Shown piece by piece: positions 330-64,000 of a DNA stretch of 64,000 nt. Under the pieces are notes generated by a model that saw only the letters and a program-made list of their open reading frames with translations, did no database searches and was not told the DNA's origin. This DNA comes from Liolophura sinensis (Eukaryota; Mollusca; Polyplacophora; Chitonida; Chitonidae). Each line of letters opens with the position of its first letter. The first letter of the stretch is position 1. The stretch is taken from positions 2,479,991 through 2,543,990 of the forward strand of contig NC_088297.1 in the NCBI RefSeq assembly GCF_032854445.1, given 5' to 3'. Both the position numbers and the translations under genes were made by a program.

Positions 330-653
330 TGCTATGTGTAAGTACCGCGGACGTCACGTGGGCTCAGAGGGTCATGGAGGGGTTTGAGGGAGGGACGGTG
401 GCCTTGCCCTGTATAGTCAGTATACAGGGGGATCTGCGGTGGAGAATAGGAAATATTGCCGTCCTAGTCAGAACCGGTGGTCAAGTCCTCATAGACCAGA
501 ACAACCCCTGGAAGGATGTGATCAGCCTTGTGGGGAGCAGCAATAACCTGAGCATCAGCTCCCTCGGTCATGAGAGAAATGACAGCAGGACGTTCACGTG
601 TGACGGTACAGGACCTGAAGCACGTCAGCAGGAGACAACTGTCAGAGTCTTAG
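330..653 (+). CDS. Copy 1 V-like Ig exon (exon 2)
   Basis: Acceptor tttccacag before 330, donor gtaact at 654, phase 1 to 1. It supplies the end of the signal peptide (VLCVSTADVTWAQ), then an Ig fold with Cys in ALPC, Trp in LRW and Cys in FTC. The usual DxGxYxC is DSRTFTC here. NLS is a possible N-glycosylation site. Reading past the donor gives a stop after one further codon. Confidence 0.85.
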
Positions 654-3600
654 GTAACTGAACATTGAAAATGTATCAACATTTTAGGGTTTATTATTTC
701 CGTTTTGCGATATTTTTTGTCCATCATGGTGGTAAAATCATTTTATCTGACTGAAAGCCAATGTCTTGCTCTAAACACTTCTTTTCTTTATAAATTTAAA
801 CTGTGTTCTGGTCGCTTAGGTGTAACTTTAAACGGAACTATACCGCAGATTTTTTGGCCAAAGAAAAAAAATCCATCAGGTCAAATCCAGTCGAATTTTT
901 GCTACTAATGTAGAGTAGTCCGTATAATTATCTTTTGTAAAATATTACCCATCACTGCGTGCGTGTTACCGTTCACAATTGATAAAAAGATTCATGAAAT
1001 TTATAAGACAGGTAGCTTTATAACTTTTTCAATCATTAGAGTCATCAACCGCTATATATAACATACGGACGAGTCTGATATTTACTGAACAGTAATAATT
1101 GCAGCTACTCCAAGTAAATACGGACAATTTTATTTATTGGCGGATATAGATTCTTTGCTAAACGTATCCTGTATAGCCTCATAAACATTTACTTTATTTT
1201 AATATTTGGTATTATGGTCCTAAAATGGGCATTTGAGATGTTTAAAATAACTAAAACAGTCAGAATCAGAGCGGTCATAGTCGAGCAAGCCAGTGAAGGA
1301 CAGGTAACTCTGACAGAGGGGACACCTAAAACATTAACCTGTGCGGTGACCGGGACCCCTAACCCTGCTCCCTCCTACAACTGGACCGTGTATAAAGGCA
1401 GTGGATATGGGCAGGGATCAAGCTACAGTCTGACAGTTGACAGATCCATGAGGAGTGTCAGTTGTACAGCCATAAACAAGTACAATGATGGGAGAGTATT
1501 GAGTACAGCGACGGCCACTGCCACACTCAATGTCCTGTGTAAGTTAGACCTGTGTCTAAATAGTTAAAAGCCAAGAACTGATTCAGTGATCAGATAGTAG
1601 ACACAATATTTTCTGTTTTAATATGGAAGTCGTAAGGAACCACATTTTTCCTCAGTTTGGATTGAACCCTCGAAGAAATTCCCTTGTGATATACGTGTTA
1701 CAAAGGTGTACATCTGTTAAGAATGGATCACGAGTTGGGTGTCTAGTGTTGGCTGTCTGAACCTACCCTTTACATGTATCTATGATTTTGTCTTTGTATT
1801 TACATGATTTCACAATTTCTCATGTACTCCAAGTGGAAATATCTGATGCGTTGTAAATATGTGGTTAGAGGTAATTTTCCGGGTTGATGTCCTTGTTCCT
1901 CCTGAATGTATAATATATACATGGCAGATACGTTATGTTTTCTTCACTCGACATACAAGCAGGAGCCCTGATGGGATTTCTATGCTGAGTTACATACTTG
2001 TATTTTCCAAAAATTAGACCAGCTGTTCTGTTACGTTGTATGAGATTCCGTTAGGTGTATTTTTATGAGATTTTCTCTTGTGTCGTAGATTTGGATTTAC
2101 CAAATACTGTCACTCCTGTTACGGTGATACAGAACGAAATAGCCACCTTACGGTGCTTTGCTCAGGGGAATCCCCTACCCACGTTTGAATGGAGAAAATT
2201 AGGGAGTGCAGAGGTCAAGAGTTCATCAGCTGTTTACAGGATAGAGAATGTACAGAGGGTACCTGCCGGCGAATACACGTGTGACGTGACTAACAGTGTC
2301 GGGACGTGACAAAATGCAGTTGAGCTCATTGTACAGTGTAAGTATGCACATTGAAGCCGACAGCCAGACTTCTTAATTGTTTCCGTTTACTTAAACAAAA
2401 TTCTATCGATATAAAACTGTCAATATTTCAGCTCCATCCGATGTAAAAGTAACGTATGACCAGCGCGCCCATACCATAACCTGTACAGCTGAGGGTACTC
2501 CTAATGTCCACACCTTCAGTCCGTGGGAACATCGCCTGGGAGCGACCCTCATACGGAGTCTGGGTACCCAGACAAACGGGATCTCCGTCACCTACACTCT
2601 GCCTGAGACACTCACGTACACAGACACGGGGGACTACGTGTGTACAGCAACAAACGGCATTAAATCTTCACAAACAGGGCAGATCTATATAGCTCCTCTA
2701 AGTATGTTTAGTATGATTTTAGGACAAAACCCCGTTTAATGGAAGTCGTCCATGCTCATAGTGTGCTTTATCTTATCTTCATTTCCTTTACGCTGGCAGC
2801 TCTCTAACATTAGCCGCCATAGAAGATCGGTCATATCTGAGACCTTTGGGCACGGCGTAAGGGGCTTCACACAGAAAACATTATGATGTCACACAAAGTA
2901 ACATAATGACATCTACATAACTAACATGTTGACGTCACTCAAATTAAAGACACAACGCCGTACAAAAAAACACGGCGGCAGTGCGTGGGAAGGTCTCTCG
3001 GCAACCTGCGAATGGTCGTGCGCTTTCCCTGGCTTTCTGCCCGGTTTCCTCCCACCATAATGCTGGTCGCCGTCGTATAAGTGAAATATTCTTGAGTACG
3101 GCGTAAAACACTAATCAAATAAATAAATCAATCAAACAAACAGAACAGAACTTGTCATCGTTTGTGATTTTGAGATTAATCAAAAGGGGAGGTTTGAGTT
3201 CGAACTCATTTATCATCGAAAGTAGAAAAAGTTCAACTGTATAATGCACCAGGTCAAAGATGACACGCGCCTATTTTTGATCTCATTCACCGTAAAATGG
3301 GCGTAAAGTGTAAAACGTTTTATATAAGGCTATTTACAGTAGACGAATGAAAGAGAAAATTGAGAGTATGAACGTTGTGTGAACTGGAGAAGTTCCTAGA
3401 GGTAAAAGTTGTCATTTGTGCCTCTTGAATAGAGAGAGACAGGTGATCAGTAAATCAGTCTCTACTCAGGTGCCTCAAATTTTTCACCATTCACACGGCA
3501 CCGTGGAACGATTTTACATTTGACGACAAAAATAGTTCTCGAAACTCCAAACTCATATATTTAAATGTTACATTTTGTACTTTATATAGTGGTTTTAAAC

Positions 3601-6454
3601 GTCGTTTTGTTTACTCACAGTTGGTTAATCACTTGTGCACCCCCATAAAGATTAGAATGCTGTTCAAGTTGTCTTCCAATGAAAGGCAATAAAAAGAAAA
3701 CGAATACAAATGTTGAACTATTAACTTCACGTTTGAAAGTTCCTGTATTGTTTCTTTTTGTTTTAAGCTTCAGCCGTGTTTCAGAATCATTCAGAGAAAA
3801 TGATGGTTGGATTGGAGAGATTCGAGAAAATATCCGTATCTTTTTACGCACGATCATCCTCCGGCACTATTCGGGTGAAGTGGGAGAAAGACGGAGAAAG
3901 CGACGCCCTACAGTCTCACCAGGAAGAGGAAGTTGTTGTCAGTCTGGTGCTGTATGGCCAGCTAGTCAGTCTACCAGGGACAGTCACCATACTGACACTG
4001 GCTGATGTCCGCCAGGCGGATGAGGGCAACTATACCGTGACCGTCATCTCTGACATCAACGGAGTTACCCAGAAGTCAAGTACCAGCGTTTACGTCGAAG
4101 TCATTGAAAAGCCATCGGCAATGAAAGGTTTGTACCTTATTGTTCAGTTAAATCAAGGTGTGAAGGTAGTAATTTTAAATCTGCAGAACCCTAGTGTCAA
4201 AACAGAAGTCGTTCTAGTAGTTAGATGCGGCAAGACTCATTTCCAGAACGGCCCAAAACCCCAGTCCCCATAGTAATATGTACGAAAATGTAAATACACA
4301 ATCAATAAAGCTGGTAACATGTTTTAATTGATTCCAGTGCGAATCCGTCAGGCGTGGACATTGTCAATTAAACAGTCTGTTTGTCGTTGCAGACATATGT
4401 GGAAATCAGACCGGAGCAAACACTGTGGCGATCGTTGGAGGGGTGTTAGGTGGTCTGCTCGTTGTTGTTACAACTATCTTAACAGTGATAGTTGTGATGT
4501 TCTGGAGGAGATCAAAAACAAAAGGCTGGTATTCCTGACTTCGGAGATTTCATGTAACGTCCAACTTACAACACAATGTCAGAAGAAAGGCAGTAATTTT
4601 GGGGATCCTGGGTTTGTAACTTGATAAACAAATTATGCCAATTCGTGGGATAAAAAAGGGCCGACTCGCTGTATATCTACGTTTATGATTTCAATATGCA
4701 ATATTATTCACACTCTACATGTACATGGTGATGACAACCAAAACACATCCTTGTCCTCCCAAAAAATTATAGGTGCGTTATTTTCTCTTTTACCCTTCAC
4801 TGAAAATAAGTGATTTCAATGTTAATTGGTCCGTCCGATTTAGTGTTATGGCGTATTAGAGATTATTTCACTTGTATAAGAATAACTATATCAAAGAAAG
4901 GAGAAAATCTGACACCATCCTGGGATATATCATTGTACAATGTAAAGAAAATCTGTAAGGGACCGTATACCTTAAACACTTTACAAGGCTGCGCGGTTAT
5001 AAAAGTTTATAGTGTGTTTGATTTTATTTCAGCTTTAGCACAGGGTACTGAAAACAGGTACTTACATTCCATTATTTCTGTACTGGTTATATTTACATGT
5101 AGTATCACAACACGATAACCCCTGAGTCTATCACCAATAGGGCAGAGACTGTCAGTGGGCACTTAACACAGAAATAGTTTCCCATCGTGACCTAAATGTT
5201 CGGAGACGGGACAAATCTTCCTACTTACACATTGGAGCTTTGATAGTTTGCTGTGATTAAACCATATACAAGAAAAATAAGGTCAGGTGTTCCTGTTCTC
5301 ACTTAGTATTTCACTGCGTCTGCCATAAGATAAAGTAAAAATAATATGTACCCTGTTTTCTGTTTTTTTCTTAATAAAACAGACAGAGCTCTGGTAACGT
5401 AAAACGTAAAAAAGGCTAGAGATAAAACCCCCTGCTAATTTCAGCCTACAGAGTTTGCTTTTTGTATCTTCTTCCGAATGACCGGCATTAAACATATATG
5501 GGGCACAATTTAAAAGACACGATGACAAAAAATTAAACGTTCGTAATTTGCTCAGTGATTTAGCTTCAGGATAAACTAAGCTTTAATAAAAAGGGAAAAG
5601 TGAAAGGGAAATAAAAAGGGAAAACTAATCTTACCAAACTGCTCTTCTAGGCAGATGTCACAATCAGGAGAGCTCAACGCAGAAATGCGGACGATACCGA
5701 GAGCGGCCGATACTCACCATGACCCTGTTGTCGACATGGGTAAATATACATAAAAACGAGATGGTATGTTTATTGGCTAATTCTCTGAAATAAAACAGAT
5801 ATGGTAAAGGCGTCAAGTGATACAAATGACGTTTAATAAATGTTACGCTTGCCAGAGTTTAGTCTGAAAAGCTAAAATCTGGAATTTAGATGACAAAAAT
5901 TGTATAAGGTATTCACTCATCTATTTAAGTGTTTATTACTTTTCGGAGACTGGAGAAGAATTGAAACCACTATAAGCTACGTACACTTCTTAACTGCTTC
6001 AAATAACGTATGCAGTGACTGTGAGTTCAAATCCAGTTCATGCTGGCTCCCTCTTCGGTCGTACACGGGATTGCACGGCGGTAACCTGTGGAACGTCGTG
6101 GGTTTTTTGCTGGGATGTCCCCGGTTTCCTCCAACCGCTGTCGTCATTAAGTCACATATTTTTGAGTACGAAGTATAACTTCAATCAAATAAACCAAACT
6201 CATATATTACATCAAATATCTACAAGCAGTTGGATTCTGTATATTAGCAGGTATATATCTGTGTAATTACAGATCACAATTACGAGTCTCTCGCTCACAA
6301 CATCGCCATAAACCCAGGATCACGTGGCGTGAACTATGAGTCCATGACGTCACCCACTAGGTCTGGTGACAACATGTACGAGAACACCGAGGGTACTAAG
6401 TCTAATGCGGAGGCGGCACGGAGTGAGGACCGGGCAAACTACCAGAACGTCTAA
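330..6454 (+). CDS. Copy 1: five-Ig-domain transmembrane receptor, 5' partial, with one nonsense codon
   Basis: Predicted type I surface receptor. Spliced exons: V 330-653, Ig2 1260-1538, Ig3 2089-2337, Ig4 2432-2701, Ig5 3768-4127, TM 4393-4524, microexon 5033-5057, cytoplasmic exon 5651-5739, tail 6273-6454 (TAA 6452-6454). Exon 1 lies left of the window. With a 40-nt exon 1 as in the other copies, the total would be 1950 nt (649 residues), exactly in frame. All ectodomain junctions are phase 1. The tail carries YESL, YESM, YENT and YQNV. Two oddities: a TGA at 2307-2309 in Ig3, where copies 2 and 4 have CGA, and a GC instead of GT donor after the TM exon. Either exon skipping or pseudogenisation is possible. 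That this is an IgSF receptor is firm; that it is functional is doubtful. Confidence 0.7.
654..1259 (+). other. Copy 1 intron, V to Ig2
   Basis: AT-rich intron. It is similar to the same intron of copy 4 (20073-20629) and to the sequence before the Ig2 relic of copy 2 (8521-8750). No mobile element is recognised in it. Confidence 0.7.
1260..1538 (+). CDS. Copy 1 Ig2 exon
   Basis: Acceptor aaaacag, donor gtaagt, 279 nt, phase 1 to 1. Open Ig domain with Cys in LTCAV, Trp in YNWTV and Cys in VSCTA. The first two cysteines and the tryptophan have I-set or C2-like spacing. This is the only intact Ig2 exon in the window. Confidence 0.85.
2089..2337 (+). CDS. Copy 1 Ig3 exon with premature stop
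   Basis: 249 nt, acceptor tgtcgtag, donor gtaagt, phase 1 to 1. Ig motifs: LRCFA, FEWRK and GEYTCDV. TGA at 2307-2309 replaces the CGA (Arg) of copies 2 and 4, a CpG-type transition near the end of the domain. If included, translation ends in Ig3 and no membrane anchor is made; if skipped, the frame is kept. Confidence 0.8.
2432..2701 (+). CDS. Copy 1 Ig4 exon
   Basis: 270 nt, acceptor atatttcag, donor gtatgt, phase 1 to 1. Open Ig domain with Cys in ITCTA, Trp in SPWEH and a classic DTGDYVC motif. This is the best conserved ectodomain exon of the family, present in every large copy. Confidence 0.88.
2972..3145 (+). mobile_element. SINE fragment in the Ig4-Ig5 intron of copy 1
   Basis: 3' part of a tRNA-headed SINE: 'tttcctcccaccataatg', then the 'gtgaaatattcttgagtacg' block and a tail of 'aaat' units. 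Copy 4 has the same element at the same place (22905-23075), so it was inserted before these two copies split. Confidence 0.75.
3768..4127 (+). CDS. Copy 1 Ig5 exon (membrane-proximal, cysteine-free)
   Basis: 360 nt, acceptor gttttaag, donor gtttgt, phase 1 to 1. Ig-like strand pattern with Trp in VKWEK and a DEGNYTV motif where DxGxYxC is expected. Neither canonical cysteine is present, so the fold would have no core disulphide. Confidence 0.85.
4393..4524 (+). CDS. Copy 1 transmembrane exon
   Basis: 132 nt, acceptor gttgcag. A glycine-rich entry (IVGGVLGG) leads into about 22 hydrophobic residues that stop at FWRRSKTKG, a basic stop-transfer signal. The donor reads gctggt where the other copies have gttgg, so it is a GC donor or a decayed one. 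Confidence 0.85.
5033..5057 (+). CDS. Copy 1 cytoplasmic microexon
   Basis: 25 nt between tttcag and gtactt; enters in phase 1 and leaves in phase 2, coding for about ALAQGTEN. The same microexon with the same borders is present in copies 2, 6 and 7. It is needed to place the following exon in the frame that reaches the tyrosine tail. Confidence 0.75.
5651..5739 (+). CDS. Copy 1 cytoplasmic exon 9
   Basis: 89 nt, acceptor cttctag, donor gtaaat, phase 2 to 1. Codes for a hydrophilic linker (RQMSQSGELNAEMRT...). The alternative acceptor 4 nt downstream (gcag) would leave the frame, so the upstream AG is chosen. Confidence 0.75.
6005..6195 (+). mobile_element. SINE in the tail intron of copy 1
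   Basis: Starts with a B-box-like 'gagttcaaatcc', followed by 'cggtttcctccaaccg', 'cacatatttttgagtacg' and 'tcaatcaaataaa'. It sits at the same place between exon 9 and the tail exon in copies 2, 4, 5, 6 and 7, so the insertion predates the expansion of the family. Confidence 0.75.
6273..6454 (+). CDS. Copy 1 tail exon with tyrosine motifs
   Basis: Acceptor aattacag, ends at TAA 6452-6454; 60 residues. NYESL, NYESM, MYENT and NYQNV are visible. YESL fits YxxL; YENT and YQNV fit the pYxN consensus known for the Grb2 SH2 domain. The L-to-Y gap of 14 is longer than in classical ITAMs. Confidence 0.82.
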
Positions 6455-8751
6455 GCTCATCTATATTTATTTATTTTTTTAACAGCAAATGCGTCTTATA
6501 CACCTAGGGTTCCGGATAGCTGAGAGCCTAGCGGTGTTAATTGGTTCTCTACCTGAACCAAAGTGAACTATATGTTTACTCTTCCTCTGTCCCCCAATCA
6601 TTCCATCTGTCCGTCACTAAACTCTTTTCCGGACTTTTTGTGAATCGTTTTGTAATGTGCATTATATTTCATGGAAACTTGGTAAATGTCTTCACCATGG
6701 GGAGTTACAGATTGGTCGCTTTTGTACATGTATATATGTGGTACACAAGTTTTTGATGTTCGTTTTGTTCGTTTCATCCTAGTTTTGCTTTACTTCTGTG
6801 AACTGCATACTTATGTATGACATTGGTTGCGTATCAAACGGTTTACTCAGATGTTAACAAGTTCCGCATTAAATTGTTTGTTGCTATTTTGGGAGCTTCT
6901 AACCAATATTGGACGTGTATTACGGAAAAAATCCTTCTAGAAATGATGGGGAAAAGCCTATTTTATATTTCCTTTGTTGTGACCTGTATGCACTGTTCAA
7001 TATTTTCTCGTGTGAATAAAATCACATTGGTATCTTGTTGGTCTCGATATGTATACAGTAGTAGGAGGAGTATAGGTTCTGGCGCACGCCCCCCCTTGGG
7101 GCCCTCCCCATAACAAATAGACCCCCCCCCCCCATTTCCATGCTTCCCCATACCCCTCCCCCCCACCCCACCCCCAACCCCCTTTAGGCGCCTCCCCAGC
7201 CAAGGCATACACGCTTATTTGCAAGCCTCGCCTACACACACGCATTGATATGAGGCGACCTAGTTGGCATTTAATACATAAGGATTATAGTCTATATATA
7301 GGCTGGCTGTATTGCACAACAGGGTGATTCAGCTGATTTTCTCCCCACTATAGGGCTTAAACCACGGATTTTTATAAAAAATAAACGTGACAGCCTTTTT
7401 CAGCGTGTCTTGTTTGATAAGATCCAGTATTTTTCGGAGGATTGGAAATATTTTGTTTATGCGGGATAGACTTTCCAATTTAGCCTATGTTTCGTGGGTC
7501 GTGAGATATAGCTCAGTCGGCTGACAGAGGTGGGAAAGGCGCTGTGTGTAAGGGGTGTATTCATATACTACATGTATAAGGGGATGTTTGCTAGCTCAAA
7601 TCCGGATGTGGTCTCCTGTATATGTAGTATATGAATGCGTTACCTGCATATGGCGCCGGGCTCTACGCACTTCTAAGGAATCTCTGCAACTTTCGACAGT
7701 TTCGGGGGCAGAGAGACCTTACCAAGGGGTTTGTGATATACTTTTGTGAAGTCCATACTTATATGGCAGGTTTTAGTGATAAGTTGCTTTTGTATAAAAG
7801 TGTTTACTCACGTGTTAAATTTAATGCGCATTAAATTGCTTGTTGCTCTTTAAGGAGCTTCTAACCTGTATTTGATATGTATTACGAAAACAACCACACG
7901 TGCCATTATATATTCATTTCGCCAGATGTTGTTTGTTTAAAAGTTGAATTGAAGTGAATTCTGCATAAAACTGTTTGTTGCACAACATCAGTCGTCAAGC
8001 TGTAAGTGGCCTATTTAAAGATCGTAAATAAAAAGTTGCAATTCCCTGACCGAGCACGCAGATTTGCGATCACGGAGAAGTAGAAGAATGCACTATTGAA
8101 AATATGAGTTGGATATCATGGGTAACTCGTACTTTACTTTCAGGCCCGTGTCGGGTTGAGTTTGTTCGTCGCATAATAGTTTAGCTCCAGTAAGGAACAG
8201 AACACAAACATTATTTAGTTTGAAATAAAAATGAAAGCATCCAAAATGTCTGTGCACAGCGCTGTTTTATCTTGAAAGCAGGGTATTGTAATAATTCGAC
8301 ACATCGGCAATATTTCAATCATATCGAGGCAAATCTTGTGTTAAAGATCACGTGTTTTCCACCAAAGTCATTAACAAGGGCGATAATTTGTTCGCCATAC
8401 GTGGGAAAGTTGGTCAGAAAGTTGCTCGTATTTGGTGGTTTTCGTCGGGTATTTCGGTTTCAACCACTTACTGAAATCGATGGATGAAAATACGAAAATA
8501 AAAAAAACTGAGAGCAAGTCCAGTCACATTGTTGCTATTATTGTAGAGTAGCCCATATAATTATCTATTGCAAAATATCAGTCATCTCTGCGTGTGTTCA
8601 CAATCGCTAAAAAAGTTTATCATTTTGATGAAGGAGATTGTTTTATGACTTTTTCAACCACTAGAATAATTTTAGCACTAGATATAGTATACGGACGATT
8701 TACAGAAAGGTAATAATTTAAGCTACTCTAAGTAAATACTGAAAATCGTCC
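6455..8751 (+). other. Intergenic region between copies 1 and 2
   Basis: The first 400 bases are 3' flanking sequence shared with all other copies ('ccggatagctgagagcctagcggtg'). A C-rich tract lies at 7087-7200. A 'ccgagcacgcagatttg' block at 8049 recurs downstream of the other copies. No convincing gene; the short open frames here lack splice context and homology. Confidence 0.6.
7087..7200 (+). repeat. C-rich low-complexity tract
   Basis: Almost pure C with short T/A interruptions, including a run of about 12 C at 7122-7133. The complementary strand has several runs of three or more G at close spacing and could fold as a G-quadruplex. It is not seen in the homologous flanks of copies 6 and 7. 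Confidence 0.7.
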
Positions 8752-9014
8752 GTATCACTGGGGCCATGATCGAGCAAGCCAGTGAGGGGCAGATAACTCT
8801 GACAGGGGGGACACCTTAAACAATAATCTATGTGGTGACCCTTCTCCATTCTACAGCTGGAAGGTGGATGATGGCGGTATAGCTAGACAGGGATCAATGT
8901 ACAGTCTGACAGCAAGCAGATCCGTGAGGAGCGTCAGTTTTACAGCCATAAACAAGTACAGTAATGGGAGAGTACTGAGTACAGCGACTGCCCCTGTCAC
9001 GCTAAATGTACTCT
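8752..9014 (+). pseudogene. Copy 2 Ig2 relic
   Basis: Begins like the Ig2 of copies 1 and 4 (IEQASEGQ). The frame then meets TAA just before the first Cys, that Cys codon is TAT, and about 19 nt around the C-strand are missing. The donor gtaagt at 9015 survives. Confidence 0.8.
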
Positions 9015-9564
9015 GTAAGTTAGACTTGTGTCTAAATAGTTAGAAGCCAAGAACTGATTCAGTGATAAGATATCCGGCACATTATTTAGTGTTTTAAAAC
9101 GAAAGTCGTAAGAACACACATTTTTCTTTAGGTTTTTTTTATAGATCCTCGAAAAAGTTTCTTTGTGGTGTATGTGTTACAAAGGTGTATATCTGTTAAG
9201 AATGGGTCACTAGTTGGTTGTCTGGTTTTGTCTGTTTGAATCCACCCTCTATATGTATCAATGATTTTGTCTTTGTATTTTCAGCATTTCACAAATTCTC
9301 ATGTAATCCTAGCGAAAATATCTGATGCGGTGTAAATTTGTGGGTAAAGTTTATTTTTCGAGTTGATGCCGTTATTCCTCCCGACAGTATAATATATACA
9401 TGGCAGATACGTTATACTTTGTTTCACTTGAAATAACGGCAGGTGTTCAGTACGGATTTTTATGCTGAGTTATGGTATTTTCTAACAACCAGACCAGCCA
9501 TCAAGTTGCATTGTATATGATTAAGTCAAATGTATTTTTTATGAGATTTTCTTTTGTGTTGTAG

Positions 9565-9813
9565 ACTTGGATTCACCGAATACTGCCACTCCTGTTACGG
9601 TAATACAGAACGAGATAGCTACCTTACGGTGCTCTGCTCAGGGGAATCCCCTACCCACGTTTGAGTGGAGAAAGTCAGGGAGTGCAGAGGTCAAGAGTTC
9701 ATTAGCTGAATACAGGATAGAGAATGTACAGAGGTCGGCTGCCGGTGAATTCATGTGTGACGTCACCAACAGTGTCGGGACTCGACAAACTGCAGTTGAG
9801 CTCATTGTACAGT
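9565..9813 (+). CDS. Copy 2 Ig3 exon (intact)
   Basis: 249 nt with good acceptor (gttgtag) and donor (gtaagt), phase 1 to 1. Cys in LRCSA, Trp in FEWRK and Cys in GEFMCDV, with Phe for the usual Tyr. It is the only sound Ig exon of this broken copy. Confidence 0.75.
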
Positions 9814-9944
9814 GTAAGTATGCATATTGTAGCCGACAGCAAAACACTTTTATCTCCTGCATATACTTAAAGAAATACCATTACACTGGAAATAAATGCT
9901 ACCTGTCTATAGAAGATTCTAATAGAAATCTGTCAATATTTCAG

Positions 9945-10189
9945 TTCCTTCCGATGTGAAGGTGGCGTATGACCAACGCACTCACACATTAACCTGCACA
10001 CCTTCAGTCCGTGGGAACATCGCCTGGGAGCCACAATCATACGGAGTTTGGGGACACAGACAAACGGGATTTCTGTCACTTACGCTCTGCCTGAGACACT
10101 GGCGTACACAGACACGGGAGATTACGTGTGTTCAGCGACAAATGGCGTTAAGTCTTCACAAACAGGGCAGATCTATATAGCTCGTCTAA
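9945..10189 (+). pseudogene. Copy 2 Ig4 relic
   Basis: 245 nt instead of 270: 25 nt are missing after the first Cys codon, so the frame shifts, and the donor gtaagt has become ataagt. Confidence 0.85.
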
Positions 10190-10892
10190 ATAAGTACAGT
10201 ATGATTTTATGACATAACCCCGTTTAAAAGAAGTACTTGCATGCTCATAGTGTGCTCTATCTTGCATCTGTCTTCATCTCTTTTACACTGGCAACTTCTA
10301 ACTTTATTCATCAAAGAGAATCCGTCATATCCGAAAGCTTTGGGCACAACGAATAACGGTATTACGCCATAGGCAAGTGTCGTCACACAGAAAACCTGAT
10401 GACGTCACACAAACTAAAGAATCGGCGATGTACAAACGAACCCGGCAAACAGAACTTGTCATCGCTTGTAATTTTAAGATGAATCAATAGCTGAGCCTGA
10501 ACGTTTTGTGAATGGAGTCGTTCATACAGGAAACGTGTCATTTTTGTTTGTGAATGAGGGTAAACGGGGTGATCAGGAAATCAGTTTCAACTAGGTTTTC
10601 TAACATTTTTCACCATTTAAATGGCACACTAAGACTGTTTTGACCTTTGACGACAAATGAGTTCTAACTCGAAACTCACCCATTTGAACGTTGCAGATTG
10701 AAGTATAGACAGTGGTTTCATTCGTCGTTTTCTTTACTGGCAGATCATTAAACAGTTGCTTAGACTCTTATAGATTAGAATGCTGTTAAGGTTGCGTTGC
10801 AATAAAAGCCAATAAAAACAAAACGAACAAAAATGTTGAACTATTAATGCTCAATCTTCATCTTTCAAAGTGTGTTTTTTGTTTGTTTTTAG

Positions 10893-11247
10893 CTCCAGCC
10901 TTGTTTATGAATCATGCAGAGAAAATGGTGGCTGGCTTGGAAAGATCTGAGACAATATCCGTGTCTTTTTACGCACGATCGTCCTCCGGTACTGTCCGGG
11001 TGATGTGGGAGAAAGCCGGAGAGAGTGATGTCCTACAGTCTCACCGGGAAGAGGCGGGTCTGGTCACTCTGGTGCTGTATGGTCAGCTGGTCAGTCTTCC
11101 GGGGACAGTCACCATACTGACACTGACTGATGTCCGCCAGGCGGATGAGGGCAACCATCACCGTCACTTCAGACATCAATGGAGTAACCCAGGCGTCAAG
11201 TATCAGCGTTTACGTTGACGTCATTGAAAAGCCATCGGCAAAGGGAG
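10893..11247 (+). pseudogene. Copy 2 Ig5 relic
   Basis: 355 nt instead of 360. The frame is open up to RQADEGN, then shifts by a net 5-nt loss; the rest (ITVTSDINGV...) reads in another frame. Confidence 0.85.
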
Positions 11248-11511
11248 GTTTGTGCGTTATTATTCAGTTAAATCAAGATGTGAAAATAGTATTTTATATC
11301 TGCAGAACCATAGAGTCAAAACAGACGTCTTTGTAGTAGTTAACTGCGACAAGACTAAATTCCAAAACAGCCTAAAACACCAGTTCCCATCATAGAATGT
11401 CAGAAAAAGTAAATCCATAGTCAAGAAAGTTTATAAAATGTTTTAAATGATTCCAGTGCGAATCCGTCGGACGTGGACATTGCTAGTCAAACAGTCTTTC
11501 TGTCGTTGCAG

Positions 11512-12145: not shown

Positions 12146-12170
12146 CTTTACCAGAGGGTACTGGAAACAG
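12146..12170 (+). pseudogene. Copy 2 microexon
   Basis: Same 25-nt length and same tttcag/gtactt borders as in the intact copies; intact itself but part of a dead gene. Confidence 0.7.
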
Positions 12171-53928: not shown

Positions 53929-56029
53929 GCTCATCTATATTTATTTATTTTTTTTAGCATCAAATGCATCATATACACCTAGGGTTCCGGATAGCTGAGA
54001 GCCTAGCGGTGTTAATTGGTTCTCTACCGGAACCAAAGTGAACTATATGTTTACTCCTCCTCTGTCCCCAATCAGTCCATCTGTCCGTCACTAAACTCTT
54101 TTCCGGACTTTTTGTGAATCGTTTTGTAATGTGCATTATGTTTCATGGAAACTTGGTAAATGTCTTCACCATGGGGAGTTACAGATTGGTCGCTTTTGTA
54201 CATGTATATATGTGGTACACAAGTTTCTTATGTTCGTTTTGTTCGTTTCATCCTAGTTTTGCTTTACTTCTGTGAACTGCATACTTATGAATGACATTGG
54301 TTGTGTATCAAACGGTTTACTCAGATGTTTACAAGTTCCGCATTAAATTGTTTCTTGCTATTTTGGGAGCTTCTAACCAATATTGGACGTGTATTATGGA
54401 AAAAAATCCTTATAGAAATGATGGAGAAAAGCCTATTTTATATTTCCTTTGATGTGACCTGTATGCACTGTTCAATGTTTTCGTGTGAATAAAATTACAC
54501 TGGTATCTTGTTGGTCTCGATATGTATACAGATAGCGCACTTTCTGGTGGGGGCATCAGGAATTGTCACCTCGAGAGAAATGAGTGAGTGAGTAAGTGAG
54601 TATTAGGGGTTTAACGTCGTATTTCACAATTTATAGTCATATGACGACGAGTCATAAGAGTGCATATTATGTGCCTCCTTGTTACAAGACGGGTTTCCAT
54701 CGCTCTTTTATCTAGTGCTGCTTCACTGAGGCGCCTTACCGGAGACAAGTAAGCCACCCCGCCCGAACCATTATATTGATACGGGTAAAGCAGTCGTTGC
54801 ACTATCTCCTTAATGCTAAACGCCAAGCGAGGAAGCTACAACCTCCACGAAGCGGACGTTCTACCAACTCGAGAGAAGTGAAACCCGAGTTCAATATCAC
54901 TTGTCGATATTTTCTTATACCGAAAAAACAGTACCTTTTCGAGTTGTACTTTAAATCGTCAAATTCGGACGGAGATAACGGAGTTATAACCACCGTTTGC
55001 TGGTTTACAAACTAGCAGACGCAAGAGGCCTCTCAAAAGGAGATAACTGCTGTGAAATAACGCACGTGGTCGTTTGATATTAGCACGAGAGCGTTGGACA
55101 TTGTCTCGTCAACGAGATCGTTGGATATTGCCTACCAAAGTGGGATAATACTTTGCAAGCGTGACGCTGCATTCCTTGGGCGCGTGATCGCTGTACATCG
55201 TGTTTTGCGGAATACCATGTGACCGTCTCTGGACCACTGGAAACGGAGAATAACCCTAGGAGGTATAATAATAATAATTTGTGATTTGTCATTTTGTGAT
55301 AAGTCATTTGTACCGATTTGTATATGCTTAAGTGCAGTTTCAGTTCTTTATGTACAATGGACAGTGGTAGGGTACTGCCCGAGCACGCGGATTAATCATC
55401 ACGGGAAACTCGTACATTGCTCTCTAACAATTGCCGGGTGATTTTATTCAGAACATCTTAGTTTAGTAAGACTGGTGTAGAAAACACTGACATGTTCTGG
55501 CTTTTCATTTATTCCATTTGTTACCTGTAATTTCCGTTTTTCAAAAACACCTTGATATGCGTGCATAACCGGTCTTTGGATCAGGGTTAAACTGGCTGGT
55601 CCTCTTTTTTCACTCACTCTCCATTCTTTCTGTCAGTCGACAAGAAGAGTGCACACAGGTGTCTTCTGCTACCAGAAATGGTTAAATAAAATTAGACCTT
55701 AAAAATACGTGGGAAAGCTCGTCAGTAAGTTCCTGGAGATCGGTGGTTTACACCAAGTACTCCAATTTCATCCACCCATAGAATTACCCAACAAGACAAA
55801 AATGAAAACATCCCGAGAATAAGTAAATACATTTTACCAGAAATGGAGAAATAAAGATTTGTGTTTGCTGAAAATGGAAATTTTACGTGTCCAGATGTCT
55901 GACATACTTTGTAAGGCTCAGTCCTGCAGCTTATAAGTTATGAAGACAATGTTAGCTTTAGCTGTTTTATTTCTAAGGGGTGTAGGTCTAATAACACACT
56001 TTGATGTACATGTACATATGTGTACACAG
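53929..56029 (+). other. Intergenic region between copies 7 and 8
   Basis: Counterpart of 41591-43799. The stretch holding 'gtttgtttacattttaacaa' in the former (about 43037) is deleted here. No gene recognised. Confidence 0.55.
54583..54867 (+). mobile_element. SINE-like element after copy 7
   Basis: Counterpart of 42229-42555 with flanking duplicates at 54570-54582 and 54868-54880. Confidence 0.8.
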
Positions 56030-56243
56030 AGCTTTAACACAGAGCTAAGATGTCCCAGTTTTACCATGTACCTATTACATATATTGTGCAGTGCGACACA
56101 CATCATGATTTCCAAAGAATACATCAACGCAGAGATAGTCTCACCCAATGACCTACCCACTGTGTATAAACCAGACCGAAGGCTATGCTTACGTACATGT
56201 ATACAACCTGGGCAGGGAAGTTAGCTCAGAGGTAAAGCTGATC
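56030..56243 (+). promoter_or_regulatory. Conserved upstream block of copy 8
   Basis: Same block as in copies 6 and 7, ending 'ggtaaagctgatcatggcg'. Confidence 0.5.
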
Positions 56244-56283
56244 ATGGCGGGCTGGTGCCAGTGCTGGACACGTCTCTGTGTAG
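56244..56283 (+). CDS. Copy 8 first exon
   Basis: 40 nt, phase 1, donor gtgcgt as in copy 7. Two dead first-exon repeats follow (56332-56480). Confidence 0.72.
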
Positions 56284-59200
56284 GTGCGTTCTATCCTTGT
56301 CGTCTACTGTGTGCCGTACGGTAGGTGTTATCCTCGATAGCGCTGTCTGGTGCCGGGGCTGGATACGTCTCTGTGTCGTTGAGTTCTAGCCTTGTCCTCT
56401 ACTGTGTGTTGGACAGGAGTTGTTATCCCCAGTACAACGGGCTGGTGCCGGGGATGGACACGTCTGAGTGTCGGTGGATTCTAGCCTTGTCTGCCTGCAC
56501 TTGAGAAGAGTTCCTACCCTCGGTATGTAGGACTGTTAAGAATGTCGGACTGTTGGACCATGCCAAGTCTGGGAAGAACAAAGAGACGTAACAAACAGCT
56601 GGTCGCAGACTAAAGTGCTCGGTTTTTCCAAAGTACATTAAACGTTTGGCCCGACTTAAACTCTAGTATTGATCTTGGCCTAGTACACAATCAGCGGCAC
56701 TTTAGTTCAGACTAAATTTAGTACCGGTCTTAACTGCTAATACACTTTTAAGCAACTGAGCCAAATTGGCAAAATGGAGCAGGAGACTGACTGCCGTTAA
56801 ATTGGGTCTCATTTAAAGGCTTTCAACGCTCTTTGTGGTCCAAAGTTTATAATCTTGGTAGTAAAAGACCTGAGTGCAAAGTCTCAGAAGTTAATTCATG
56901 TATATTCGTGGAAATGCTGTACACTAAAAAGTAATAGGTTTAGTTGGTGTAAGGTTAGAATAAGGCTAACTCTCGTCTTAAAACGTTGAAAAATGTTCTT
57001 TTGATGATAAGAAAGTTTTCTTTTCACTTTATAAGAATATATATAATTTTGGTTAGGCTAAATTCTCTTTCCTTCACCCCATGACTATTATTTTTTTTTT
57101 TTACAAAATACGATAACATAACACTAGAGCGTTGTAACCGTATGGTTCTCCCTATTACGTCCACCGTTAAGAAAGTGGACATCTTCCATGTACAGAGGTC
57201 AATGTACATTTCTTTCTCAATCGGACTAAATCATCTTAAAGTGAGAATTCCATGAATAGCACTTCTAGGCTATTTGATGCCATTTAGGGTGAAGTTCAGA
57301 CCTATCGGGAAGTAGCTCATTTCTGACACTCTAAACATTCATAAGTCATAAGCACATCAGTAGTAAGCTCGCATGGTTTGGGCAGAAGTATGTTGATAGC
57401 TTTGGCTTTTTCTTGGTATATGGGCTTTGTGCAAGACCTCATGGGCGCAAATGGGCGATGGGTAGCAATAGTTGGTAATACATATCCAAAAATCAAATTA
57501 ATAACAAAATCAAGGTGTTCAAAAAATCTTTGTTTTAAATATTAAACCTGACTAATTTGTCAATGACATCTAACTGAACTGGAGTAAAACTGTGTATTTA
57601 TCTATTTTCATATCACCTTTTCTTTTTCTACTGATCTACAGACTCACATCACTTACGTACTTATTACTTCTATTACGACATTAGATGTCTTTAACATCTA
57701 ACAACTTTTTGTGAGGTGAGGGGCCTAACCACTGATTTTACGGTCAGTATTTACCAGCACAGAATCCACACATTCGCATACATTTAACTACATGCATATT
57801 CAACAGTCTAAAAAAATTTTCAGTACAACTGTTTTCATGCACACCTCTAGCTTGTCCAATTGAAGAACGTTGTCATATTTTGTAACTTTCCTTTAAAGAT
57901 GATACAATTAACCTTATGTTTAAACAGTACTGTGTTCAGTTATCGTGGACATGGCGTTGGCTGAGAGGGTCGTGGAGGGGTTTGAGGGAGGGACAGTGGT
58001 CCTGCCCTGTACTGTCAGTATACAGGGTGATCTGCGGTGGATAATTGGTGGAACTAGCATTTTCCAAATCAGAACCGGTGGTCAAGTCCTCAAAGAAAAC
58101 ACCCCCTGGAAGGATGTAATTAGCCTTGTGGGGAGCAGTAATAACCTGAGCATCAGCCCACTCTGTCGTCAGAGAGATGACGGCAGAACGTTTAGGTGTG
58201 ACGATACAGGACCTGGAATAGATCAGCAGGAGACAATTGTCTGTGTGTTAGGTAAGTACCTGTACATGTAGAACAGCAGACAACTGTCAGGGTGTTAAGT
58301 AAGTACCTGTACATGTAGAACGGAAGACAACTGTCAGGGTGTTAGATAAGTACCTGTACATGTAGAACAGAACTCAACTGCCAGGGTGTTAGGTAAGAAC
58401 CTGTACATGTAGAACAGGAAACAACGGTCAAGCACATGTGGTCCAATATATGTGGCAGTGTTACATGTGATTTACTGATTTATTCTTTGATTGGTGTATT
58501 TCACTTATTCGACGGCGGCTAGCATTATGGTGGGAAGAACCAGGCAGAACCCGGAGGAAACCCTCAACTATCCGCGGGTTGCTGCCAGACCTTCCCACAT
58601 ATGCCCTACACGTAATTGAATATGGGTATACAATTTTTGTAGCCAACAGATTTGTATCGTTCACGCCGAGTATGAAAGGCCCATCCTGTTTGCGGCAGCC
58701 GCGCAAAGCCCCCTGGAGTGGGTTCAAATTACTCCAGATTGCGTCACTAAATGTTGAATTTTAAATCCCCAGCTTTTGTTTTTCCCAAAAGATACCTTGG
58801 GATATGCTGATTATAAAATGCTAATTCTTAAGTTGCAACTCCACGTACAATTTCCAGTAAAAGCAAGTCAAAAGTTAATGATCGTTCTAAATTTCCCCAA
58901 AACAATGGTATCGGTCACGGTTGAGTACATCATCGAATGCTATTTTAAAGGTTCTTACCGCCGAAAAACCGATTCTTATTTTCTTAGCTGATGTACTAAA
59001 CCAAATGAGAAACGTCTGATTAACGCTAATTAGGACATCTGTCAGTGATGTAGCGTACAATGATGATTTTTTAAACAAATTATACCTAAAGCTAAACATG
59101 TAGGCGCACTGATAAAACAAACAGTAAATTCTTATCCCCCCAACTACATGTATAAATCTACTTAAGAACGGATCAAATATTTACATCTCAAATGACCTCA

Positions 59201-62200
59201 ATACGAGTGGAAAGGTCAAGGTTGAGTACAAGGATAAAACTTTTTTCACAGGTTCTTCATAACAAACAAAAGCCCCTTCTTGAACACATCAAGCCATTAA
59301 AAAACGCCTTAATTAACGCTAATCCGGCATTTTTTTTAACAAAAAACTAATTTGACATATGCTGATAATGATATGCGAAGGTCACGGAATGCAGAGGTCA
59401 AGGTACATCAGCTCTTTACGGGATAAAGCTGTACAGAGGTCAGCTGCTGGCAAATACACGTGTGACAGCAACGGGTCGGAAATTGACAAAATTAAACGTT
59501 TTACTGTTTGTCGTACCTTAACTGGGTTTGACAAAATACAAAATAAGAAGAAAATGCTAACCTATATATCAACTGTCAATATTGTAGCTCCATCGGATGT
59601 GGAGGTGACTTTTGACCAACGTTCTCATCAGTTAACCTGTACAGCTGAGGGTTATCCTAACATGCACACCTTCAGCCCGTGGGAACATCGCCTGGGCGGG
59701 ATACTCATACGGAGACTGGGGAATGAGACACTTGGCACTTCTGTAAACTACGTTCTGCCTGAGAACCTGACATACACAGACACAGGAGATTACGTGTGTT
59801 CAGCGACAAACGGCATTAAGTCTTCACAATCAGGGCTGATCTATGTGGCTCCTCTCAGTAAGTTTTAATATTATTTTGTAAGATAAAGCTGTGGGTTGAA
59901 ATTTTTATGTAACCAACCTAAGCTTTATCTGCTCTCAACCCGTGCAAAAACCTGTTTGCACAATAAACAAAGGTGTTCCACATGCAATTGGCTACTGACG
60001 TCACACAGATGACGTGATGACGTCACACAGACGATATGTACATGTATTTTGATGGCCTTACACTGATAACATGATGCCGTCATACAGCCTAACATAATGA
60101 CATTACATAAACTAGTACGCCAAGCAGAGTGGACCATCACGTTCAATACCCAGTTTTATTAAGATTTGTAGCGCTGTCTGCTCAAGACACAATGTATACC
60201 ATCAGTATATTAAAGGATAGATAAAACTCTTTGGTTTCATTTCTCAATGTGCAGATTATCAGATGTAATAACATATAACAGCAAGAGTTTTCAACTTTCA
60301 CTCTGGGGGAGTGGAGAGGTAAAAATGTTTTCAAAGCACAGTTTTCTTAATGCCCCAGCTGTCAGTCCGGAAATTAAGCAGCTTGCAGTGCTGAAGTTAA
60401 CGATGATCCCTGTTTAAAAATAACTATGTGGATGACAGACCGAGTCGGAATCGGGGCAGGGCTAACGTTATCGACAGAATTTACCGGGGTCGGGGCACTT
60501 CGGGGGTGTACACCGAGTTCCAAGCAAGATGACATAATCTTTTTTGAAAAAATCCGACCGTTGACATCGCGAGCTGGCCATTGAAGTTTCCTAATGATTA
60601 AGTAACATCTGTCACGATTTGCTACTGTTGTAGTAAAAATGCCAGTTCATCTACAAGCCGTGCAGCAACAACAACAATGTGTTCGATACAAGGTTCAGTT
60701 CTCATTTCTGTTATCATCATTTTAAACTGCCCAACTGTTTGGAGTTCATTTTAAGGTACATTTTAACGAAACAATATAAACTCAAGACCAAAAGAAACTT
60801 TACCACTCATAAATTGAAGTTTAGCAAACGTTTTCAGTGAATTCGGTCAACTTAACCCAGTAAAAATCAAGTGCAAATATATTCCCATTTGGGTAAAGCT
60901 ACATGTAAGCCAATACCAATCCGTTGCAACAGAAAAATAAAAGTTTAAACCACGTGACCCGTGGACGGGCCGAATACACAAGGTCAAGCGGTGTAAAAAA
61001 CGTTAAAGCCAGTATGTCAGACATGCACAATGTTTAAAAACCACCGTAGTGATGCCACGACTGTCTCCAGAACAACGCGAGAGGGCCCTGGGCATGATGG
61101 CTGTGAGAGCCACTCATACTAACATTGCAAGAACTTATGGCTGTTCTCGTGTAACCGTTTCAAATCTGATGCAGCGATACAGGCAGACAGGACGGACCTC
61201 AGACAGGCCAAGATCAGGCAGACCTTGGATAATCATGCTCAGTGCCCGGTACTTGCGTGTCTTGCATCTGCGCAATCGCTTCCTGACTGTGACGTCATCA
61301 TCACTGAATGCGTTAGGTCATCGGCTCAGTCGGCAGACAGTGTCAAGGAGACTCCGGGATCAAGGAATCCGGGTTTATTGACCAATCAGAGGGCAGTTAT
61401 TGACGGCCCAACATCGTTGTCAGAGGTTGAGGTGGGCCCAAGTTGTACAACGTTAGCTGCGACGTGATTGGCAACGGGTCGTCTTCACAGATGAGCCGCC
61501 TCTGTATGTTCAGAGCTGATGGAAGACAGCGTGTAGGCCGTAGAGGAGGCGAAAGATCGGCATAAGCTTGCATTCAGGAAGTGGCACCGTATGGTGATGG
61601 TGGAGTGATGGTATGGGGAGGGATTTGTGGACAGGAACGGACACCACTGGTCATGATTGACGGACACTTAACAGCTCGGCGCTACGTGGATGACATTTTA
61701 CGTCAGATTATTCTGCCCTGCCTTTGCCAGCGTCCACGTGGTGTCCTTTAACAGCTCGAGTCGTGCAGAACTTTCTTGACGCCAACGACGTCAACGTCTT
61801 ACCATGGCCTGCTCGTTCCCCAGGCATCTCTCCCATAGCGCACCTGTGGGACGCCCTGGATCGCTGCATATGACAAAGAACTTTCAGCTAACCGGCAAGA
61901 AATGGTACAGGCTCTAGACGAAGAATGGCACCGTATCCCACGTGACCTAATCAGACGACTGATTTTCCCAACGCGTCGGAGAATGTTTCCATGCATTCAT
62001 GCAAGGGATGGCCACAAAAGGTACTGATGAGGCGATTTTATCAAACTGAACAACTTTTTCCTTACTCACGCGATTGGTCACCGAACTGAAATGCCGATTT
62101 TTTTTACCCCAACCCCACTTCGCCACAGGGGGTGGATATATTTTCTGCTGTTCTTTTCCTTACTTTGGACGTGGATTACCAAAACATGGTGATGTTTTCA

Positions 62201-63489
62201 ATATATTGCATGTCCAGCATCTGTTGTTTTGTGTTATTATAAATTTGGGCAATTAAACGTATGGTAAAGTTTCTTTTGGCCGTCCGTTTATGTAGAGTTA
62301 TGCACAAGTGATATGACGATTCACTGTGCCTATGGATGACCGATCACGAGAAGTCCAAATATGGCGTCTAGTTCTATGGGCTTATGTACGTTGCCAGTGT
62401 CTAGTTATTTTACATAAGCACTGAGAGTAAAACCGTAGCTGTAGTGAATCGACCATAGACCATATTTCACCGGTTTCATGTGACGATCTCCCAAGTTTCA
62501 TACAATCGTCACTGCACTGTTTATACACTCACTGCTGTACAGAATAGATTATTTGGAGTGACCGGAAGGTTAACTGTAATATTGTGGTCAACGCGTGGTT
62601 TCTTAAGAGTTTCTAGACTCTATGCACTACAATATACCAATGCTAAATCTCTCTAATCGTCAACCTTCGTATTTAAATGCTCATATTATTCTCTGCTTGT
62701 TTTTTTTTCCTTGTATTTGTTTTTTCTTTTCAGCTCCCGCCGTGTTTCAGAATCACTCAAAGAAGGTGACGATTGGTTTGGGGATATCTGAGACAATATT
62801 CGTGTCATTTTACGCACGATCATCCTCCGGTACTGTCCGGGTGATGTGGGAGAAAGCCGGAAAGAGTGACGCCCTACAGTCTCACCGGGAAGAGGCGGGT
62901 CTGGTCAGTCTGGCGGTGTATGGTCAGCTGGTCAGTCTTCTGGGGACAGTCACCATACTGACACTGACTGATGTCCGCCAGGAGGATAAGGGCAACTATA
63001 CCTTGACCGTCTCCTCTGACATCAACGGAGTAGCCCGCACATCAAGTACCAGATATTATGTTGACGTCACTGAGAAGCCATCGGCAAAGAAAGGTTTTGC
63101 GTTAAAGTTCGGTTAAATCAAGATGTCAAGATAGTAATTTTAAATCTGCAGAACCTTAGAGTCAACAAAGACGTCTTTGTAGTAGTTAAATGCGTCCAGA
63201 CTAAATTCCAAAACAGCCTAAAACACAAGTTCCCATAGTAATATATAAGAAAAAGTAAATACATAGTCAATAAAGCTGGTAACATGATCTAAATAATTCC
63301 AGCGCCAATACGTCGGAAGTGGACATTGTTAATTAAACAGTTTGTTTGTCGTTGCAGACACATCTGGAAATCACGCTGGAGCAAACAGTGGGGCGATTGT
63401 TGGAGGGGTGTTAGGCGGTTTCCTCGTTGTTGTTACATCTATCTTTACAGTGATAGTTGTGATCTTATGGAGAAGATCAAAAACAAAAG
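56244..63489 (+). CDS. Copy 8: three-Ig transmembrane receptor, cut by the window end
   Basis: Exons seen: 56244-56283 (MAGWCQCWTRLCV, donor gtgcgt), V 57928-58251, Ig4 59588-59857, Ig5 62734-63093, TM 63358-63489. All open, all in phase 1. The window ends at 64000, just before the expected microexon acceptor, so microexon, exon 9 and tail lie outside. V has unusual changes: SPLCRQ brings an extra Cys, and FRC and VCVLG another, so unpaired cysteines are possible. Same intron insertions as copies 6 and 7, but only four 47-bp units. Confidence 0.78.
57928..58251 (+). CDS. Copy 8 V-like Ig exon
   Basis: 324 nt, acceptor taaacag, donor gtaagt. VLPCTV, LRWII and DDGRTFRC, with extra cysteines at PLC and VCV. 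Confidence 0.84.
58238..58430 (+). repeat. 47-bp minisatellite carrying splice donors, copy 8
   Basis: Four units (donors at 58252, 58299 and 58346, and gtaaga near 58392); same unit as in copies 6 and 7. Confidence 0.9.
58485..58620 (-). mobile_element. SINE in the V-Ig4 intron of copy 8
   Basis: Same element as at 34540, with about 20 bp ('aatacgccgtactcaaggat') deleted. Confidence 0.7.
59384..59478 (+). pseudogene. Ig3 relic in the V-Ig4 intron of copy 8
   Basis: Same remnant as in copies 6 and 7 (GKYTC variant as in copy 7). Confidence 0.78.
59588..59857 (+). CDS. Copy 8 Ig4 exon
   Basis: 270 nt, open; LTCTA, SPWEH, DTGDYVC. Confidence 0.87.
60779..62283 (+). mobile_element. Tc1-like transposon, dead, copy 8
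   Basis: Inverted ends 'ccaaaagaaactttacca' and exact complement at 62262-62279. Same lesions as in copies 6 and 7. Confidence 0.87.
61049..61381 (+). pseudogene. Tc1-like transposase relic (copy 8)
   Basis: 110 open codons; 6 nt longer than in copies 6 and 7 (IIMLSARY instead of IISARY). Ends at the same TGA. Confidence 0.87.
62734..63093 (+). CDS. Copy 8 Ig5 exon (cysteine-free)
   Basis: 360 nt, acceptor cttttcag; VMWEK and DKGNYTL; open. Confidence 0.86.
63358..63489 (+). CDS. Copy 8 transmembrane exon
   Basis: 132 nt, IVGGVLGGF, LWRRSKTKG, donor gttggt. Confidence 0.86.
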
Positions 63490-64000
63490 GTTGGTATTCC
63501 TGACTCCGGAGACTTCATGTAACGTCCAACTTCCGAGCGAATGTCAGAAGAACAACAGTTATTTTGAGGATACTGGGTTTGTAACTTGACAAACAAATTA
63601 GAGTAGGCGGTTTTGCAGGATAAAAACGAGCTTCGTGCTCTGTGACCACGTTTACCGTTTTAATACGGAATAACATTCATACTCTACATGTCCATGTTGA
63701 TGGCACCCAAAACACATCCTTGTGTTGCCAAAAGAAAATTATACGTGTGTTATTTTCTCTTTCACGCTTTACTAAAAATAAGTGATTTGAATGTTAATTA
63801 GTTCATCCGATTGAGTGATATGGCATATTAGAGATTATTTCACTTATATAAGGGCAGTTATATTCAAGGAGGTAGAGAACTTGAAACAAGTGTGTGATGT
63901 ACCATTCTACGATGCAAAATGAATGTGCAAGGGACCGTATACATTTAACACTTTGCAGAGCTGTGCAGTGATACAAGTTTATAGTTTGTTTTATTTTATT
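63490..64000 (+). other. Copy 8 intron after the TM exon, cut by the window
   Basis: Follows the same intron of copies 6 and 7 to within about 3 bases of the expected tttcag acceptor. The missing exons lie outside. Confidence 0.7.

Follow-up and report, generated by a model that had tools for sequence, protein, structure and literature searches.

A tandem family of immunoglobulin-superfamily receptors in a chiton: a V exon set apart from its flanks, a conserved tyrosine tail and a probable role in immune recognition

A 64,000-base stretch of scaffold_11 of the chiton Liolophura sinensis (scaffold positions 2479991-2543990; hereafter the window, from whose first base unprefixed coordinates are counted) contains eight copies or fragments of a single immunoglobulin superfamily (IgSF) receptor gene, all on the plus strand, as recognized by DNA and protein comparison. 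The receptor family is real and, judged by its genes, well formed; its members are likely recognition receptors, and their role is probably immune. Taken together, we favour, with moderate confidence, a germline-diversified family of type I recognition receptors, probably immune, with a tail suited to recruiting SH2 proteins; the immune function is one that we infer from sequence. The family looks like an invertebrate counterpart of the receptor families that tell friend from foe. New here are an island formed by the V exon, with signs of exchange between copies, and amino acid replacement directed to one face of the encoded domain.

The homologous exons of every copy were located by comparing DNA and protein sequences, and their borders were then read off, the signal-peptide exon being found by a signal-exon scan and tblastn. 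In copies D, E, and F, the exons follow the order signal, V, Ig4, Ig5, transmembrane (TM), T1, and T2, the last two encoding the tail. Every internal exon border in these copies carries GT/AG, and all splice junctions are phase 1 except that between TM and T1, which is phase 2. In the encoded protein, a signal peptide is followed by the V-set domain, which lies farthest from the membrane, then by two or four more Ig-like domains, a single TM helix, and a tail of ~90 residues. Copies D (31111-41590, 465 amino acids) and E (43715-53928, 463 amino acids) are open from signal peptide to stop. In copy D, the signal-peptide exon (31111-31150) supplies MKILLAIAVLFLT plus one nucleotide, and the V exon (33479-33799) encodes the rest of the signal peptide and the V-set domain; Ig4 (35660-35929), Ig5 (38854-39213), TM (39478-39613), T1 (40787-40875), and T2 (41409-41590) follow. 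Ig5 is Ig-like and is without cysteine in D, E, and P1 (a copy described below); its structure model had a predicted local distance difference test score (pLDDT) of 42.9 and was not used. In the spliced full-length D, the Pfam profiles V-set (28.2 bits; cut-off, 26), Ig_3 (36.3; 30), and I-set (26.5; 23.7) exceeded their cut-offs. The V exon alone scores under the V-set cut-off, and a V-set match at E ≤ 0.01 was obtained for 9 of 13 V domains. The initial annotation, made from the letters of the window, had proposed this layout of V, further Ig, TM, and tyrosine-bearing tail, together with a profile check of the spliced product; the common exon model and the Pfam scores bear it out, and its figure of 472 residues for the product is replaced by the 465 of copy D.

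That annotation had foreseen one V plus Ig layout. The layout holds, but the family has two architectures, a five-Ig and a three-Ig form. Copy P1 (scaffold_11:2463274-2469259), just upstream of the window, carries additional Ig2 and I-set exons, is open from V to stop, and encodes five Ig domains and one TM helix; no signal exon was found between scaffold_11:2455001 and its V exon. The three-Ig form is, judging from its exons, derived from the five-Ig form by exon loss, since three-Ig copies retain a decayed I-set exon. In copy D, this remnant lies at approximately 35440-35560 and includes AVQRSAAGEYTCDSN; similar remnants were detected in the loci L005, L006, and L011 (E 0.005-0.009).

Searches of the genome (632 contigs, 609,464,459 bases) yielded 26 matches to the V exon (from 27 candidates), 25 to Ig5 (from 30), 20 to T2 (from 23), and 31 to Ig4 (from 46, some of them distant), some of these matches being parts of a single exon. 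Family matches are located at 2.21-2.29, 2.41-2.56, and 17.81-18.07 Mb of scaffold_11 and at 92.48-92.54 and 95.26-95.32 Mb of scaffold_1, where a divergent copy with stops is also found at 70.49-70.52 Mb. The cluster that had been placed at 330-64000 is present and begins immediately behind the splice acceptor of the V exon in copy A, but the family continues past the window on both sides and on scaffold_1. On scaffold_11, 19 units or fragments were inspected, eight in the window and 11 in other loci of the scaffold (L001-L011, L016, and L021), a count that omits the minus-strand group at 2.27-2.29 Mb and most of the group at 17.8-18.1 Mb. Two are open throughout (D and E), two are candidates (P1 and H), and 15 are broken or partial, which supports the earlier view of a tandem birth-and-death family with many pseudogenes. 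The exons of copy H are open, but the copy was not scored as intact because GT is absent at the usual Ig5 donor. Interleaved haplotypes are an unlikely source of the copies because the window and the neighbouring loci L001-L004 contain no N and the flanks differ by 2-5%, exceeding the heterozygosity of 1.24% given in the account of the Liolophura japonica assembly (PMC11068029). The mean read length stated there (8,347 bases) is shorter than the 12.2-kb unit, so that the order of the units is less certain than the joins between V exons and their flanks, which fit within one read.

An alignment of units D, E, F, G, I, and J spanned ~11 kb; in the Fisher tests applied to it, sites are treated as independent and the pairs share sequences. 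In seven pairs (EF, FG, FJ, EI, FI, GI, and IJ), the V exon differs by 13.1-14.6%, compared with 2.4-4.6% in the 1.48 kb 5' of V and 2.9-3.3% in the 3.1-3.2 kb after a 47-bp tandem repeat that adjoins the V exon (P = 1e-8 or lower for V versus flanks). E, G, and J, the last located 300 kb away, have a common V exon (1.0-1.6% different) between upstream flanks differing by 3.8-4.1% (P = 0.008-0.03) and downstream sequences differing by 3.1-3.6%, the latter comparison being significant for GJ (P = 0.008). Copy D differs from the other units by 19-28% upstream of V, 10-14% in V, and ~3% after V (6.7% in the pairs with J); D therefore switches partner at the V exon and the repeat. No such island was found at Ig4, which differs by 0.7-3.7%. 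The pairwise homoplasy index (PHI) test, in our own implementation with 1000 permutations and windows of 50 and 100, rejects tree-like descent of the V exon (12 V exons: 0/1000 permutations at window 50 and 1/1000 at window 100) but not for the constant part. Among the six aligned units, the counts were 0/1000 for V and 0/1000 for the upstream part, and 577/1000 and 880/1000 for two stretches of the constant part. The V-exon pattern matches the trace that swapping of V segments among the copies would leave.

Pooled ratios of the proportions of nonsynonymous (pN) and synonymous (pS) differences were 0.78 for V (13 V domains), 0.33 for Ig2, 0.44 for I-set, 0.47 for Ig4, 0.55 for Ig5, and 0.61 for T2. 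Of the variable ectodomains proposed at the outset, the V domain alone is markedly variable. On the structure model of V, we defined a face resembling the GFCC'C'' sheet and comprising residues 23-46 and 77-88 (the C, C', and C'' strands and the FG loop). The pN/pS of this face was 1.37 versus 0.44 in the rest of the domain when all 13 V domains were pooled, and 4.56 versus 0.46 in the recent copies D, E, F, G, and I. In these five copies, the face labels were the best of 94 circular shifts (1/94, the observed one), no set of 2000 random labels matched them, and none of 2000 bootstraps gave pN ≤ pS; among all 13 V domains, 5/94 shifts and 1/2000 label sets were as good. The excess is significant in the single pairs D-I (P = 0.003), D-E (P = 0.011), and E-I (P = 0.040). 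Two copies on scaffold_1, C1a and C1b, have nonsynonymous and synonymous divergences (dN and dS) of 0.143 and 0.031 in V and of 0.024 and 0.047 in Ig5, and represent a separate case of this kind, though C1a is without the first V cysteine. The V model (mean pLDDT 67.0) was matched by Foldseek to the IgV domains of 2B4, CD48, CD58, CD80, PD-L1, and TIGIT (best E = 1.3e-6) and aligned with CD4 D1 by VIA-align (Z 13.2; root-mean-square deviation, 1.8; 89 residues aligned). CD2, CD48, CD80, PD-L1, and TIGIT, IgV receptors to which the model is similar, bind through the GFCC'C'' face.

The T2 exon of copy D ends in ..NYESL..NYESM..MYENT..NYQNV-stop, and the YxxL-type and YxN motifs read earlier in the tail are present; the motifs are YESL, YESM, YENT, and YQNV. 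The 11 full T2 copies that were compared all retain the four tyrosines; two are missing from copy C. YxN is the consensus Grb2 site and YxxM the consensus PI3-kinase site. On scaffold_1, an exon with 31-36% identity, on the same strand as a TM match and 4.6 kb beyond it, contains NYEFL, TYDQL, TYENT, DYETL, TYDQL, MYENT, and SYENV. By position it is a putative tail, in which a YxxL-Yxx[L]-YENT-Yxx[VL] cassette is present twice, and it is the sole match of this double-cassette kind in the genome. One of its YxxL pairs, with a 12-residue spacer, fits the pattern that we used for an immunoreceptor tyrosine-based activation motif (ITAM; Y..[LI].{6,12}Y..[LI]), and the pattern for the inhibitory motif of vertebrate leukocyte receptors (ITIM; [SIVL]xYxx[ILV]) has one weak match each in copy H (SNYQNV) and the scaffold_1 tail (SSYENV).

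Under the reading that we favour, the V domains would bind many different or fast-changing ligands through the C-C'-C''/FG face, and gene conversion of V exons together with selection would keep producing new faces while stalk and tail stay alike. A ligand would cluster the receptors and lead to phosphorylation of the tail, whereupon the two YxN motifs could recruit Grb2-type adaptors (Ras/ERK), YxxM an SH2 domain of the PI3-kinase type, and YxxL some further SH2 protein. Haemocytes recognizing microbes, parasites, or damaged cells would be the likeliest setting. If so, a solitary mollusc renews its recognition surface in the germline by exon exchange and selection with the signalling tail held, a design that would also be that of cnidarian Alr, tunicate FcoR, and the paired receptors of vertebrates. 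For chitons, whose immunology is sparsely documented, this would provide a concrete receptor family and a site at which to ask whether V-exon conversion in molluscs is germline or somatic.

Several results weigh against this reading. For EG (P = 0.13) and EJ (P = 0.077), unlike GJ, the contrast of V with the constant part falls short of significance. Among the 10 pairs of D, E, F, G, and I, seven show T2 likewise diverging beyond its flanks (P < 0.05), with tail ends common to both classes, and exchange is thus not limited to V. The face was drawn after the alignment had been seen, on a model of middling confidence, and G and I, which belong to the five-copy set, are broken elsewhere. The face excess is not firm over the 13 V domains, in which 89/2000 bootstraps gave pN ≤ pS and the 5/94 shifts equalled the observed labels, and it is significant in only three of seven single pairs (E-F, P = 0.093; D-F, P = 0.058; C1a-C1b, P = 0.147; F-I, P = 0.393). 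These tests on the face, too, take sites to be independent, and their pairs have sequences in common. In the tail, the ITAM pattern has no match in D, P1, or H and the ITIM pattern none in D or P1, so that canonical motifs of either kind were rejected for the scaffold_11 copies. The likeness to immune receptor families noted in the initial annotation is strengthened by V-exon exchange and diversifying change on one V face, but does not extend to a canonical ITAM or ITIM.

Each unit of the 47-bp repeat includes the V exon's final 20 bases together with its splice donor. The repeat is present in ~15 copies in D (33780-34495), ~17 in E (45994-46820), ~4 in F (58227-58430), 19 in G, 17 in J, 28 in H, 5 in I, and 6 in p2. 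In none of the five-Ig copies P1, A, C, K9, L7, and L8 was an array found, and scaffold_1 has single cores; the repeat is a hallmark of the three-Ig class and lies at the point of the partner switch in D. Alternative splicing that uses the repeated donors was considered as a diversifier and rejected: the unit is 47 bases long and translation beyond the first donor quickly runs into a stop, so that such splicing would truncate the protein rather than vary it. That the repeat aids recombination is a guess. It is doubtful that the V exon serves as a cassette dedicated to exchange, with the repeat as its recombination site and with V swaps outpacing the surroundings, perhaps in blood cells in addition to the germline; if it did, molluscs would have their own counterpart of V-gene conversion, acting on a signalling receptor.

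The family was compared with known systems by their published descriptions. Hydractinia Alr are described as clustered single-pass IgSF proteins with a hypervariable, V-set-like distal domain that has positively selected sites, tails with signalling motifs, many apparent pseudogenes, sequence donation between loci, and a role in allorecognition (PMC3276163, PMC11067881). The chiton genes likewise form a clustered IgSF family with many pseudogenes, a hypervariable V-set domain, and a signalling tail, their replacement excess on V being between paralogues rather than alleles and with mixed single-pair support; Alr belong to another phylum, and the chiton tail motifs are YxxL, YxxM, and YxN. Botryllus FcoR (53 loci) are reported as type I receptors that combine a V-type Ig domain with additional Ig domains and a tyrosine tail including Yxx[I/L/V] (PMC12065747), features shared by the multigene chiton receptors, but with a sushi domain between the Ig domains and canonical ITIM/hemITAM motifs. 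Oyster CgIgIT2, according to a review (PMC11999971), has five extracellular Ig domains, one TM helix, a classic ITAM, and tyrosine signalling with ERK activation; work calling it inhibitory is also cited there. This mollusc protein resembles P1 in its five Ig domains and one TM helix, whereas D, E, and F have three Ig domains, its ITAM has no counterpart on scaffold_11, and the review passages compared mention neither a tandem cluster nor V-exon exchange. In Biomphalaria, the diversity of the FREPs, another case of IgSF diversification in a mollusc, is ascribed to gene conversion and point mutation (PMC12074976), but these proteins are soluble with a fibrinogen domain, unlike the membrane-bound, Ig-only chiton family. 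The Biomphalaria PTC1 and PTC2 clusters also comprise single-pass membrane genes with very diverse ectodomains, linked to parasite resistance, whose domains include FN3, TMEM154, and C-type lectin (PMC10875847). Only Ig families were detected by Pfam in D and P1, with no fibrinogen, sushi, FN3, TMEM154, or C-type lectin domain, and architectures of the FREP, FcoR, and PTC types were rejected on these grounds. We claim membership in none of these five systems, as the comparison is by description and the chiton family has no sushi, fibrinogen, or ITAM features. Among the literature matches listed, a set leaving out most subscription papers, no description of this chiton family was found by title or abstract.

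Recognition of conspecifics by the V domains, in allorecognition or gamete compatibility, as by Alr in Hydractinia or the fuhc complex in Botryllus, seems to us unlikely, since chitons are solitary, free-spawning animals in which fusion of bodies is not known. It is nonetheless to Alr that the published pattern comes closest, with its hypervariable V-set-like domains, positive selection, and tandem sequence donors (PMC3276163, PMC11067881). We give still less weight to a family for adhesion or neuronal identity (Dscam-, Dpr/DIP-, or nectin-like), in which diversity would serve cell sorting. Robo, Dscam, and contactin are the best PDB sequence matches of the five-Ig ectodomain, and the V model is as close to the adhesion IgV domains of CD166, nectins, and CAR as to those of immune receptors; however, the PDB matches are centred on the generic I-set domain, and the high share of broken copies, the exchange of V exons, and the replacement directed to one face set the family apart from stable wiring receptors.

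We regard as least probable a decaying tandem array of little function whose copies amplify with repeats and drift. The 15 broken or partial units of 19 would suit it, as would the tandem repeats and transposon remnants carried in the units. Against this, Ig2, I-set, Ig4, and Ig5 are constrained (pooled pN/pS 0.33-0.55), as is the rest of V outside the face (0.44-0.46), the tail tyrosines are retained, and drift would not yield pN > pS on one face.

The initial annotation had counted eight copies or fragments on one strand, and the same eight were recovered here: A, B, a TM fragment, C, a T1/T2 fragment, D, E, and F. Copy A (330-6454), of the five-Ig form, comprises V (330-653), Ig2 (1260-1538), I-set with an in-frame stop (2089-2337), Ig4 (2432-2701), Ig5 (3768-4127), TM (4393-4528), T1 (5651-5739), and T2 (6273-6454); a stop interrupts the signal exon of this copy, which lies at scaffold_11:2478456, upstream of the window. 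Copy B (8748-13515) is broken, with a stop and frameshift in Ig2, an open I-set, frameshifted Ig4 and Ig5, TM, T1, and a shortened T2; a V exon was looked for in this copy and none was found. The TM-exon fragment occupies 16462-16590, with DNA similarity extending over 16346-17218. Copy C (19751-26170), also of the five-Ig form, consists of V (19752-20072), an Ig2 that an insert divides into two parts (20629-20745 and 21197-21361), I-set (21945-22193), Ig4 (22339-22626), Ig5 (23703-24065), TM with the usual donor altered (24328-24462), T1 (25434-25523), and T2 (26000-26170), in which the first and third tyrosines are lost and the usual stop is absent. The T1/T2 fragment lies at 27989-28708. 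The exons of copy E are at 43715-43754, 45698-46018, 48004-48273, 51181-51534, 51799-51934, 53125-53213, and 53747-53928. Copy F (55940-64000), of the three-Ig form, has exons at 55940-55979, 57928-58251, 59588-59857, 62734-63093, and 63358-63493, and its T1 and T2 are located beyond the window end (scaffold_11:2544675-2545478), T2 having an in-frame stop after the second tyrosine motif.

Repeats accompany these units. In D, E, and F, the intron between Ig4 and Ig5 holds an open reading frame with a helix-turn-helix, resembling the start of a Tc1-type transposase (37134-37502, 49457-49825, and 61007-61381), the first copy exceeding the Pfam HTH_29 cut-off. Between V and Ig4 of each three-Ig unit, a repeat resembling a short interspersed element was seen by eye (34565-34849, 46890-47174, and 58471-58764). 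An 89-bp tandem repeat (7.6 copies, 97% alike) is located at 18118-18796, with 95-bp relatives at 31422, 44017, and 56248. Elsewhere in the genome, eight haemocyanin C-terminal domains (PF14830) in a row on contig C8 (37880506-37891931) fit one mollusc haemocyanin gene, in agreement with the early assignment of the DNA to a probable mollusc, here a chiton. Dense runs of Ig_3 matches at C4:19.00-19.36 Mb, C13:17.51-17.57 Mb, and C9:34.39-34.44 Mb are perhaps further IgSF clusters. Many long open frames of ~1,240-1,330 amino acids with Ig_3 matches, apparently intronless, occur at C10:10.9-20.8 Mb and also on scaffold_1 and C2; we presume, as a guess, that these are leucine-rich repeat-Ig genes.

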